NCBI GenBank assembly: GCA_017506865.1
Contig: JAFCMP010000526.1
Coordinates: 620,001-684,000 of the forward strand
DNA length: 64,000 nucleotides
Direction of reading: 5' to 3'
Origin: Tribonema minus
Lineage: Eukaryota > Sar > Xanthophyceae > Tribonematales > Tribonemataceae
Position numbers and translations under genes: made by a program. Numbering within the stretch: the first letter of the stretch is position 1; each line of letters opens with the position of its first letter. This document shows positions 459 to 63,800 of this stretch, one piece after another. A model generated the notes under the pieces. The model did not search any database, was not told where the DNA came from, and saw only the letters and a list, made by a program, of their open reading frames with translations.

Positions 459-3400
459 GAGAAGCAGCAGATGCTGCGCTTCAACCTGACGGCGGAGAAG
501 AATCCGGAGCTCTTTGTTGAAGTCGTGGCGGGCGACAAGGCGCTGGAGGACCTGTGCGGCATGACGGCCACGGAGCTCGCACCGCAGGCGCAGCGCCAGA
601 AGCGACAGCGCATGCTCGACGAGAGCGTCGCGGACCACTGGATCAAGGAGGTGCGCCGAGCGCTGCTGCTCGCACGTGTGCTTGCGTGCGTGTGTGCTTC
701 TGGCATGTTCCACGGGACGCTGCGGATGCGCCACTTTCTCCGGTTGATGGCAGACATGGAATCGGCATGTTTGCAGTACCTCAAATTAGAGTTGACGTGC
801 GGCGCGGCGCTCGTGTGCGCCTCAAACCACTCCTCTGCTGATGCTCGCGCTCGAGCCCTCGCTCTCTCGCTGGGGGAGGACTTTGGGTCAGGACTACTAG
901 GGTTAGGGTCAGGGTCAGGACCACTAGGGTTTCCACGCACTGCGTTGGCGTCGCTGATGCTGTATTACTTATCCGTGCCGGCGCGCAGAAAGCGGAGGAC
1001 ACGGAGCTCGTGTGGGACAACGCGGGCGGCGGCCTCATGCGCAAGACGCAGCTCAAGGGCGAGTCCAAGAAGGCAGCGCTCACCAGGTGTGCGCTGAGCG
1101 CTGCTGCACCTGCTGCTGCACCCCGCGCGTCAGCATCGTGGATGATGACACTTATGGCGACGCTGTCATGTAGCGTCTCTGAGGGCTGCAGCTTTCCGGG
1201 CTGTTTGCATATGTGATTGCAAATGCTAAGCAGCATGTATATGGTGCTATATACTACACGTATATGGTGTAGTGAGGTGGATGCTGCTGGCCTGCTGCTG
1301 CAGTCCTGCGCGTTGTGCAGTCATCGCATGCCTTGGATGCAGGCCACAGGGGTTGAAGTGTAGTGTAGCCCGCTGTAGCCGGTCCTTGCCGCTTCTGATT
1401 GATTCATCTTATTCAATAATTGGCAGAGACGGTAGTGGGGCCCAACTGAGTGTGTTGTCATCACCGTACAGAGAACAGTGTGGAATGACGTATACCAGAT
1501 ATGCCAAACAGTCTGATCCTATTCTATGTATATCTACTTCAACTTTAACTTTACACTATTGTCAAGGTGGACCTGCGCCACTGACCCAAGAAATCAGGGG
1601 GTAAGTTTGCTGCGTCGTCCCTAGCAATGCATCAGAACTGCTCCCTCCCAAAGCTACATGACACACAGCTGTGTCATACGCTCCACCATTCAACGAGCAC
1701 GCATCAAGTACTTCTCCCCACCGTCGCCAGGAACTGACACGACTCCCCCCATGCACCTCCATCAACTGCTGCCCCCCCCCCCCTCTTGAACAGCCTCGCG
1801 GCAGTGCCAGAGGGCGCGGCAACGGGGGCCGAGGCCCCCCCCCTCAAGCCCCCCCCCAAGCGCACCCCCTCCGATGCCTCCATCGACGTCAGCGGCGTCA
1901 AGAAAGAGGGGGGGCTCAAGCGCCAGGCGAGCATCGACAGCCTGGAAGAGGGGGCGAATGGGGAGGACAGCGGTGCGAAGCGCGCGCGGCGCGAGTCGCT
2001 GGAGCCCCCCGAGGCGCGCAGAGCGTCACTCGACGGTGGCAAGCGGCGCGAGAGCGCGGAGCCGTCAAAGGTGAGCTGAGGGATGTTGAGCCAGTGTATT
2101 GGCACCTAGAAGGTCGGTAGCAGTGACCATAATGTCGCCGCAACACAATCTGCTTGCAGAGATTTGTTGTACCTCTACTTCAAGTGCTTGAAGCGGTGAT
2201 GAGGGCTACCATTTGGCCCTTGATGTGATGTGTCAAAGCGAGTTCTGTCCTGCAGCGCGCCGACTCCAGTCGGACTGCTACTGACAATCAGCAGGTGATG
2301 CAAAACTGCTGTGAATGCGTGTGCCCAAGAGCGTCGTCGGCGGGTTCGTCGAGCATTGATGCAGCCAGTCTGCGGCTTCACCATAGAGCCTAGCTACCAT
2401 TGGACACAGCGCCTGTCCTTTGCTCCACCGCTACCCGCCTGGTAATGACAGCGCCAACATAGAGTTTGCCTATGTCGTCGCTTCTGTGTCAGCCGCATCC
2501 TAAACCGATCACTTCAATAGCGTCAGGCCATGCATCCTGCACTCTTCAACAGTTTCTCCACACTCCAACTTCAACACCCCTCTCTCACACAGGTGCTGAG
2601 CCTCCTGCAAGACATCAAGGTGGACGCTCCCTCCCCCCCCGTCACCGCCCTTTCCGGCCCCCCGCCGCTCATCCAGTCCATGGAAGTTGACGTTGAAGTT
2701 CCGTCCACGCCGCCGGCGATGGACGCCTTTGAGAGCTGGGACTACGACAACGACGCTGACGCGGACGATGAGGAGTTTGGCGGGGGCGGCGGCAGCGGTC
2801 TCGAGGACCCGAGCCTGCTGTTGGAGGGGGATGAGAGGTCGGAGCTGGAGGACATGACCATGGTGAGCGTCGCTGAGCGCTCGTTGAAGTTTGGTCGCGG
2901 GGCCGCTCCTGCTGAGTGTTGAGATTGAAGTGCATCCCTCTTCTTTGTCCCACTGCGCAGCGTCATGACCATGGTGAACGACGCTGTGCGCGCGCGAGGG
3001 GGGTTGAAGTTTGTTTGCGGGGGGGCGCTCCTGCTGAGTGTTGAAGTTGAAGTGCACACCTCTTGTTTGTCGCACTGCGCAACACTGCAGCCACATGATG
3101 GGGGGACAATGAGACAGAGGAAGAGCTGCACGATTTGCGGCAGCTGCTTGGTGCCGAAGCAGAAGGCTGCTGTCCACGATGCCCGTACCGCAACTGCAAT
3201 CTCCTACGTGCATCTCCCCCCCTTCCCCCGCCCCCCCCCCCCCACACACACCTCTCTAACATACCACGCATGAACACATGTATGTACGCAGGACGACGAC
3301 GACGAACACGTGGAGCGCAAGCACCGCCGGGGGTCCGGCGAGCGCCGCCACCACAAGGCAGAGGGCGCGGCGTACGCTCCGCACGTGGCAGCGTACGCGC

Positions 3401-60800: not shown

Positions 60801-63800
60801 CTGCTGAAGAGCAGCACATGCACTTGCATCTAATTGACGCTTTTCAAGGGACTTGCAAAGCGAAACTATGGGGAGTCACCAGGAGCAGCAGCACAGATCA
60901 GAGTCACACGCTGCTCAGCTGCGACGATAGGTCCATATATGACTTCAACACGTGATGCACATGAGCTTCGGGCAGAGCAGGAAGCCCACAATTTTAATGT
61001 ACAGAACAGCAACGCTCGCCTCAGTCAGTGGAGCGCCGCCACCACCGCACAAAGAGCGCGCGCAGCAACATTAACTTGAAGTATGCCATGCCAACTCTCA
61101 CCTGGGCCTTCAGGAGGGGTGCCAGGCGCAGCTCAAGCTCCGGGACCTCAGTGCTCAGCTTTGTCAGCAGAGCGATGCCACGCGCCAGCTTTTTTGTTCT
61201 TCTCCCTTGGGATCTTCTTAAGGCAACATCAACTCGAAGTGTGCCATGACAACTCTCACCTGTGCCTTCAGCAGGGGCGCCAGGCGCAGCTCGAGCTCTG
61301 GCACCTCAGTGCTCAGCTCCGTCAACAGAGCAATGCCACGTGAGAGCGCCTCCTCGGCAGCGGGCGCATGTGCAGTCTCCAGCCGCAGGCGCGCGAGCAT
61401 CACGCCGGCGCGGTCTGCTAGCAGCTGCATTGCGAGGGCGGCGGCGGCAGGTGTGGGGTCGCATGAGCAGTTAGGATTAGGGTTAGGGTCAGTGCTAGTC
61501 CTAAGGTGATTGCAAGTGTCATATAGAAGTACAACCCTTTTCTGGGTTAGGGTTAGGGTTAACGCTAAGGTGGCTGCACGAATCACATTCACGGGTTGTC
61601 GGCATGCAGTAGCGGTGAAGCGGAGCATCAACACCAGCCTGAGCAGGGCGCGGAGCTTAGAATTAGAGTTAGGTTAGGGTTAGGGCTAGGCACGCAGCCG
61701 CGTGTCGTGAGAACATGTCGCGCGAGGCTGACCAGCATCGACATGTTCAGGCCGGCAAGCCATCGCCGCCTCATGAAAGCCCAGCTGGATCTACTCGCCT
61801 GGATTCACCCAACAGCAGTACCATACATTCTCACCTGTGTCAGCAGCCCCATGAGGCTGCACTTCGATTTGTCTCATGTTGCTTGGGATGACATGGAGAA
61901 AAGTGGGTTGCCTTGCTGCCCCATGAGCGCAGTACCATGCGATGAGGGTCTCATGGCACTCGTGCACACATGCCGACAAGTGACCACACCTGTCAAGGAG
62001 GACTTTTTGAAATTACAGGCTACTGACGGCCCTTGCCGCTCACCCATCCTGGATCCATCGCTTGCAGTAGAGTATCACGGTCTTGCGACAAGCAGGTGAC
62101 GCATACGGTTCGCGATGATGACATAGCTTTCCCTTTGCACATCGGGGGCTGGCACATTCAATATTGTTTGATGTGAGCAGCACGTCAGTGCTCAGTCATG
62201 ACACCCCGCGCCGTTGCGCAGCCGACGCGTGACGACGCTCCGGCAGATGCAGGCCCTGAGTGCTCAGTGCTCAGCACTGACGTGCTCATGCCCTCAGCGC
62301 TACGCGCGTAGCTACGGCCAGAATGATGCTTGAGGTGCGCAACTAATGGTGACTCTCCTGCAGTGCGGCTCTCGCGCTGCTGCACAGCTACGCACTGGCG
62401 ATGGCCTGGCACAGTGCTCAACTCTGCCATCCTCATGCTGTCGAAGGATGCCGCACGGCTACAGCCGGACTGATGCTGACGATGCTCAAGCATGACACAT
62501 CTATGACTATGATTGCCAAATAATCTTTAACTTCAACTGGTGACTCGCCTGCAGCGCGGCGCCTCTGCGGCGACATCTTCGCACTGCTGCACAGCTAGCG
62601 TTGATAATGGTCTGGCACAGCGCTCACCAACTCTGTCATTCTTGCGCTGTCTACGGCGCTGGCACGGCTACAGCCGGACGGATGCTGATGATGCTAAGCA
62701 TGATATTTCTATGATGATGCGCAGGATCTTCAACTTCAACTGGTTTTAGCCTGCAGTGCGGCGCCTCTGCGGCTGCGGCGACATCTTCGCACTGCTGCAC
62801 AGCTACGCGTTGTATGGCCTGGTATACTGCTCAACTCTGCCATCCTCGTGCCGTCAACAACGCTGGCACGGCTACAGCCACACTGATGCTGATGATGCTC
62901 AAGCATGGTAGTACTTGTAGGATGATGCGGCGGATGGTCTTCAACTTCAACTGGTGACTCGCCTGCAGCGCAGCGCCCTTGCGGCGACATCTTCGCACTG
63001 CTGCACAGCTACGCGTTGATGCTGATGATGCTCAAGCATGATACTTCTATGAATAAGATGCGGGCGATCTTCAACTGCAACTGGCGACTCGCCTGCAGCG
63101 CGGAGCCCTTGCGGCGGTGCAGCGACGCCCAGCGCTTGACGCGCGCGAGCGTCGGCAGCGGGTCCGTGAGGCCCGAGAGCGGCACGCGTACGCCGTCGCG
63201 GATCTGCGGCGCGCGCGCACGTGGGGGGTAAATATGTATTCAAGAGCTTCATGGAACAGCATTGAAGTTCATGAGTCAACATTGGTATGCATGTATGATG
63301 GAACTATGGTGCTGTGCAGGTGCAGGCAAGATGCCTGAGCAGGCGCGCTTCTCTGTCATCAATGCGACGAGCGGGAAGCAGCTGGCTTGCGGCTTCAACT
63401 TCTACTTCAGCTTCGAGACCCAAGGCGGACAACGCGCCACGGCTTCGGCTTTCAGAGCACCAGTCAGAAATTCAACATGCACTCGCCACGCGCAAACCCC
63501 TGGCCCCCTCCTTGCGAGCACTGCACACTACACCCCAAGCCTAACCCTAACCTCAACCCTAAATGCCTCCCTACCCCTCCCCCACCCCTTTCTCAAACCC
63601 TCACCCCCCTGCGTTGCCAGCTCATGAAATCGGCGTTGCCGCGCCCCCCTGTGCCAATGCGAACCTCCCCTTGCGCGCACCTGCTCCACGGCGGCCAGCA
63701 GCAGCGCAGCGTCGCTCCGCGCGGCAGCGCTCATCAGCGCCCCCCCCAGCGCCCCGTGCCCCGCCGGAGCATCCGCCGCGAACGCCGCCACGAGCGGCGT

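Follow-up and report, generated by a model that had tools for sequence, protein, structure and literature searches.

Why should the edge of an exon recur, in decayed form, inside the intron that adjoins it? This question was raised by a 64,000-nucleotide stretch of the Tribonema minus genome (hereafter the window; contig JAFCMP010000526.1, positions 620,001 to 684,000, assembly GCA_017506865.1), in which a sequence-only reading had named about ten splice junctions as being copied into their own introns. All 10 carried degenerate intron-side copies when searched with a sensitive probe of 50 exon plus 50 intron bases (search range 1000 bases, intron side only; 100% matches at probe offsets 15..50 or -50..-15 were the probe itself and were excluded from copy counts). 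At the threshold used there were 1–4 copies per junction, in place of the one to six originally described. The proposal that such decoration is systematic held up, as it recurred in independent loci and exceeded chance under two null models. Overall, the pattern is better read as the mark of an unusual mutation process at exon edges than as a reserve of splice sites, and it bears on how introns grow longer and on whether DNA is scarred by splicing or transcription.

Excess of duplicate families at exon-intron junctions

Among 119 introns from the window, from arbitrary stretches of the genome and from other dynein genes, we detected 53 duplicate families: 22 extended across a donor, 17 across an acceptor and 2 across both junctions, and 12 were interior. 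A junction was spanned by 41 of the 53 (77%), and 36 of the 119 introns carried such a family, the sites hit being 24/119 donors and 19/119 acceptors. The outer edge of the duplication lay beyond the junction or at most 51 bases inside it (near-edge) in 52 families (98%). In the 40 homology-mapped introns of other dynein genes, 19 of 21 families were spanning and all 21 near-edge; the corresponding counts were 6/7 and 7/7 for window introns alone, and 16/25 and 24/25 for the arbitrary stretches alone.

Part of this excess is expected without any targeting, as introns are short, duplications within exons are purged, and copies paired with constrained exon stay recognisable for longer. We therefore simulated uniform, tolerated duplications with subsequent decay on 75 introns that lacked families and applied the same detector. 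Tandem units yielded 43.7% spanning (P = 6e-7) and 58.6% near-edge families (P = 2e-11), and short spaced units yielded 24.2% (P = 6e-16) and 44.8% (P = 2e-17), respectively. Among families that had an alignment of 86% identity or higher, 14 of 18 were spanning, compared to 23.8% in the spaced null. Counted point by point, duplication was only slightly more frequent at junctions than elsewhere in introns (donors 21/119, acceptors 14/119, interior points 191/2105), because the copies themselves occupy intron interiors; counting families against simulation is the informative test, rather than the pointwise count. Once exon-touching families were removed, 43/2105 interior points were left, a removal that in itself favours junctions. 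As a further control, meant to separate splicing from the mere edge of coding sequence, we examined 51 predicted gene ends; 9 rows were flagged, several of them clearly from wrong models, including four inside the array of the PP5 gene described below. One family counted as interior, at L023, has a repeated unit that holds a donor-like CACAG followed by GTGAGAGT and is perhaps a misplaced junction.

Three narrower ideas were considered and set aside. Targeting by the splice motif alone is at odds with 21 non-copy donor-like interior sites that scored at or above the median of real donors, yet in only one family did the outer edge lie farther than 51 bases from any junction; 91 acceptor-like interior sites were also counted, copies among them not being excluded. 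This evidence against motif-only targeting is suggestive only, interior arrays also being harder to detect. Telomere-like repeats were weakly associated with donor arrays (6/24 vs 7/95, P = 0.024) and showed no association with acceptor arrays (3/19 vs 8/100, P = 0.38). The idea that breaks fall at one set distance of about 45 bases into the exon was dropped, as in our judgement units of this size at random offsets would also fit the exon parts.

Introns and gene models

The genome searched comprised 158 Mb in 554 contigs. An earlier search supplied the contigs for twenty stretches of 10 kb, whose positions were chosen arbitrarily and are not a strictly random sample; 12 stretches with dynein genes were added. 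The dynein motor of the window had no match at E 0.001 among 1517 candidates scored in an outside protein set, and exons were therefore mapped with an intron-free dynein stretch from the genome itself, using a spliced protein-to-DNA aligner and a query of 1168 residues. This gene (L037, 2496-5999) runs for those 1168 residues without an intron, and ten other dynein loci have introns in the first 460 residues, many at positions that are not shared. Mapping gave 61 introns in 11 loci (L027-L036 and L038), with a median of 522 bases and 51 GT and 10 GC donors. To our knowledge, 10 of 61 is a high share of GC donors relative to other genomes.

A small gene finder was first trained on the homology-mapped introns plus three long open stretches. 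After self-training on every stretch, the window among them, it was applied to L037, the window and the 20 arbitrary stretches. Homology-mapped introns were reduced from 61 to 40 by dropping those without G at +5, without C or T at -3, or shorter than 150 bases, and one homology-mapped donor was shifted by 15 bases to the gene-finder position. Gene-finder introns were reduced from 150 to 79 (25 of them in the window) by requiring a length of 150-2500, flanking exons of at least 40 bases and G at +5. In earlier counts made with partly different filters, exon-touching families made up 23 of 26 in 46 introns, a count since superseded, and 22 of 32 in 79 introns.

Structure and decay of the copies

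The copied exon parts averaged 41 bases (range 10-86), and the duplicated unit was at least 34 bases in young families. Periods were spread from 63 to 497, and the value of 105-110 bp singled out by the sequence-only reading had no special place among them. Among the 11 families (two of them interior) with two copies and an identity of 86% or more, its description of the copies as tandem fitted 3, in which the spacer was at most 16 bases, and failed as a rule, the other 8 having 40-145 unshared bases between copies. In the less similar spaced families, what looks like spacer may in part be intron sequence that has decayed; in the extreme spaced case a 37-base copy was perfect at a period of 139. 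Two spacers were searched against the genome and each occurred once. Strict head-to-tail arrays with a constant unit, as in an intronic minisatellite, were found at 4294-4636 and 62372-63020 of the window. Across the 119 introns and their exon edges there was one inverted pair among alignments of at least 30 bases, located inside an intron. In general, copies were direct and local, with unshared sequence between them. Since the mismatch between copy and original reaches about 30%, collapse or expansion in the assembly is an unlikely cause; no second haplotype was found for 25700-28700, the sole region searched for polymorphism.

To follow decay, we aligned 30 donor copies and 20 acceptor copies to the segments that they duplicate; some arrays contributed more than one copy. 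In the 27 donor and 16 acceptor copies whose alignment covered 10 or more bases on both sides of the junction, the exon parts matched the original at 86.9% and 90.5% of bases, respectively, and the intron parts at 77.1% and 77.8%. Mismatch at codon positions 1, 2 and 3 was 0.093, 0.100 and 0.162, and 0.178 in the intron parts; this is the pattern to be expected of neutral duplicates of a constrained exon, in which only the copy drifts at positions 1 and 2, whereas both sides drift at position 3 and in introns. The copies decay like neutral DNA.

A donor GT or GC was retained in 25 of 27 copies and an acceptor AG in 14 of 16, which is near the expectation from exon-part identities of 0.869 and 0.905, and the splice-site bases in these copies were not clearly better preserved than the adjoining exon bases. 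Splicing at an inner donor would preserve the frame in 11 of the 30 copies and leave it open in 2; for inner acceptors the figures were 7 of 20 and 0 of 20. Open frames via the inner site, which are expected of tandem alternative splice sites that make protein variants, were accordingly confined to those 2 donors. As far as sequence can tell, the copies resemble neither alternative exons nor maintained spare sites.

Explanations of the junction excess

On balance, we think that exon-edge segments are recurrently duplicated, locally and in direct orientation, that the copies then decay neutrally, and that the junction excess is mutational. Segments of tens of bases to somewhat more than 100, including the exon edge, would be duplicated beside or near the original. 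Copies on the intron side would be tolerated, since the outermost site would continue to be the one spliced, as protein homology and reading frame suggest; tolerated copies would then become fixed and decay, and the intron would lengthen. The trigger may be breakage, polymerase slippage or template switching where exons end; staggered breaks, or paired nicks with fill-in and filler, would be examples. More tentatively, and with a good deal less confidence, exon-intron boundaries could be a mutational target in this lineage, where a factor tied to exon edges causes breaks or template switches and introns grow from their splice sites. Candidates for such a factor would be RNA-DNA hybrids coupled to splicing, a chromatin boundary at exon edges, or spliced cDNA or mRNA that pairs with exons and is cut where exon homology ends.

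Several observations weigh against the idea of duplication focused on exon edges. Outside the window and the homology set, 16 of 25 families were spanning, with P = 0.033 against the tandem null. All of the P values ignore the non-independence of families within a gene and of copies within an array, the unit lengths and ages in the simulations were our own choice, and the pointwise junction excess was only 1.3-2x. The gene finder supplied 79 of the 119 introns and was exact on 45/61 donors and 42/61 acceptors of its own training loci. Copies had been said to lie always on the intron side; when junction segments of the 119 introns were compared to whole loci on both strands, 56 matches lay in their own intron, a strong tendency, and 25 lay elsewhere (17 on the same strand, 11 of these from locus L019, and 8 on the opposite strand), so that "always" does not stand. 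Moreover, as wholly exonic duplications are purged, a process confined to junctions would look the same as one that takes in the whole exon, and the duplication process may act on whole exons instead.

The excess might also come from ordinary tandem duplication combined with tolerance and detection bias, given short introns and the longer recognisability of exon-bearing copies. This effect is real and large, with uniform placement alone giving the 43.7% noted above and an earlier formula expecting 10.0/22 and 13.0/32; still, we regard it as unlikely to be the explanation, given 41/53 spanning families overall and 19/21 in homology-mapped introns, near-edge families at 52/53 vs 59% expected, and a like excess among young families. 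Selection could have acted at the origin only, such that duplications arise at random everywhere, new junction-spanning ones are favoured, and drift follows. Equal concentration and equal neutral decay are just what that predicts, but it requires at 24/119 donors and 19/119 acceptors a benefit that later disappears, none being visible, and we find it rather unlikely. We consider lasting selection for redundancy improbable: copies would be kept since spare or decoy sites aid splice-site recognition, and indeed most hold a usable site (GT/GC 25/27, AG 14/16) and GT and GC, both used in this genome, interchange between originals and some copies. However, site retention is about what exon-part identity predicts (although 27 and 16 copies give little power), the exon parts of copies have no coding constraint of their own, and inner sites rarely give an open frame. 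The sequence-only reading had offered both a mutation process and selection for redundancy; the former fits better, and neutral decay speaks against the latter.

A very improbable alternative is that the arrays are traces of intron birth, through tandem duplication of AGGT-containing exon segments or introner insertion. Intron gain by tandem duplication is described for a potato RdRp gene (PMC4974935) and in a review (PMC3443670); in the passages compared, these cases share with ours the local direct duplication of exon-containing DNA, so that exon DNA is duplicated within introns, and the extra splice signals. Unlike in those passages, existing introns are here extended, mostly at one end and in many genes, with the outer site apparently kept and no new intron formed. 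The AGGT model expects one copy over the donor and the other over the acceptor, and only 2 of 53 families reach both. In addition, donor arrays occurred in 3 of the 5 dynein loci (of 10) that share one intron position, which argues against a newly gained intron at that position. Introner elements (PMC9860276) likewise add sequence widely at introns, but in our introns no shared element was evident (both spacers tested matched only themselves, in contrast to a multicopy family in many introns) and the repeated part was the gene's own exon edge. Neither terminal inverted repeats nor target duplications of 3-9 bases were seen, with the single inverted pair of at least 30 bases in 119 introns (shorter inverted repeats were not sought) and young units of at least 34 bases. 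In the passages compared there is no mention, for tandem-duplication intron gain or for introners, of existing introns being lengthened again and again at their splice sites. Among the matches listed in our literature search, no title or abstract start describes copying of exon edges into introns, subscription literature being mostly outside the full-text search.

Repeated splice donors at one exon end are also said to have been found by Turri et al. in 1995, in a minisatellite that gives multiple donors in one human interferon-induced gene. Unlike that single gene with its short unit, our pattern covers 36 of 119 sampled introns and both donors and acceptors. Tandem duplication from paired nicks or staggered breaks with fill-in was reportedly obtained by Schiml et al. 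in 2016, and we know of no nick- or break-repair duplication focused on exon edges. Short direct repeats from gap filling are mentioned in the part of the intron-gain review compared here (PMC3443670). Duplications of both kinds are direct and local, sometimes with filler; the copies here are mostly direct and local, with unshared sequence between them that may be filler.

With neutrally decaying copies of their own junctions in 36 of 119 sampled introns, genomes of this sort would make exon-edge mutagenesis directly measurable, and they would offer natural experiments in which the spliceosome tells a true site from a nearby, near-identical decoy.

Junction copies in the window

Self-alignment of the window gave 12 clusters of local direct repeats, and such repeats were present at 9 of the 10 cited places, the exception being 60157. 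Exon ends were placed by the gene finder at 2862, 4805, 41339, 56919, 57105, 60157, 61260 and 63093, and at 27469 in PP5, where the sequence favours 27473; the PP5 donor was probed at 27469. No exon was predicted at 22144. The features are collected in Table 1.

Table 1. Junctions with intron-side copies, and one wholly intronic array, in the window.
Feature	Positions	Strand	Copies and remarks
Donor 2862/2863 with one copy	2853..3081	+	Original 2853-2959, copy 2964-3081, period 111; self-alignment, gene finder and probe
Acceptor 4804/4805 with four upstream copies	4294..4828	+	4327-4379, 4413-4464, 4498-4550, 4581-4653
Donor 22144 (position from the sequence-only reading) with one downstream copy	21988..22181	-	21988-22071, which includes 38 bases of exon
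PP5 donor (last exon base 27473) with four downstream copies	27048..27528	-	27352-27411, 27259-27340, 27149-27242, 27085-27132
Dynein acceptor 41339 with three upstream copies	41282..41955	-	41470-41551, 41642-41729, 41801-41893
Dynein donor 56919 with two downstream copies	56677..56979	-	56782-56861, 56677-56729
Dynein acceptor 57105 with one upstream copy	57081..57261	-	57190-57261; CCCTAA-like repeats separate the copies
Dynein donor 60157 with one downstream copy	59958..60172	-	59958-60010; probe
Dynein donor 61260 with one downstream copy	61065..61340	-	61065-61182; 81 exon bases copied, 88% identity
Dynein donor 63093 with three downstream copies found	62372..63126	-	62523-62572, 62707-62782, 62924-62986
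Wholly intronic array	38033..38194	-	Begins 42 bases past predicted donor 38237; exception to junction spanning

The clearest case was PP5, in which the exon end and intron start were repeated four times downstream and GTGAGT or GTAAGT was present in 3 of the 4 copies. At the 4805 acceptor, one copy held 24 exon bases and the three others 7. The gene labels of the sequence-only reading stood in part: Pfam matches confirmed a PP5-type phosphatase (PPP5) and, on the minus strand, a dynein heavy chain for which the best solved-structure matches were axonemal outer-arm chains, while no Pfam match for SPOC or AP2 was obtained in the three pieces tested (2521-2919, 3274-3723 and 22084-22521) and the AP2 label was not confirmed. 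A CAG repeat of about 71 units with 95% matches lies at the dynein gene (48434-48646).

Intron composition and other loci

The 119 introns (window and loci L007-L038) had a mirrored strand skew, with a GC skew near +0.12 over the opening tenth that fell to -0.33 over the closing tenth, and the asymmetry of 6-mers was anticorrelated with that of their reverse complements (r = -0.48). Short tracts were arranged in mirror fashion too, counts being made such that tracts within duplicated arrays were counted more than once: TTAGGG-like tracts lay in the first 40% of introns in 18 of 23 cases and CCCTAA-like tracts in the last 40% in 18 of 30, and likewise TTGAAGTT in the first 40% in 16 of 20 and AACTTCAA in the last 40% in 14 of 19. 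This arrangement could result from pairing between intron ends, from splice-signal bias or from break healing.

Large local repeat arrays were observed in L008, L010 and L011, with best periods of 158-361 and 3.4-3.7 kb of array per 10-kb stretch. Two short fragments of the rubisco large subunit, which we take to be of the red type and which would then suit an alga of the red lineage, were present in large contigs at L039 and L040, and are probably plastid DNA inserted in the nucleus.

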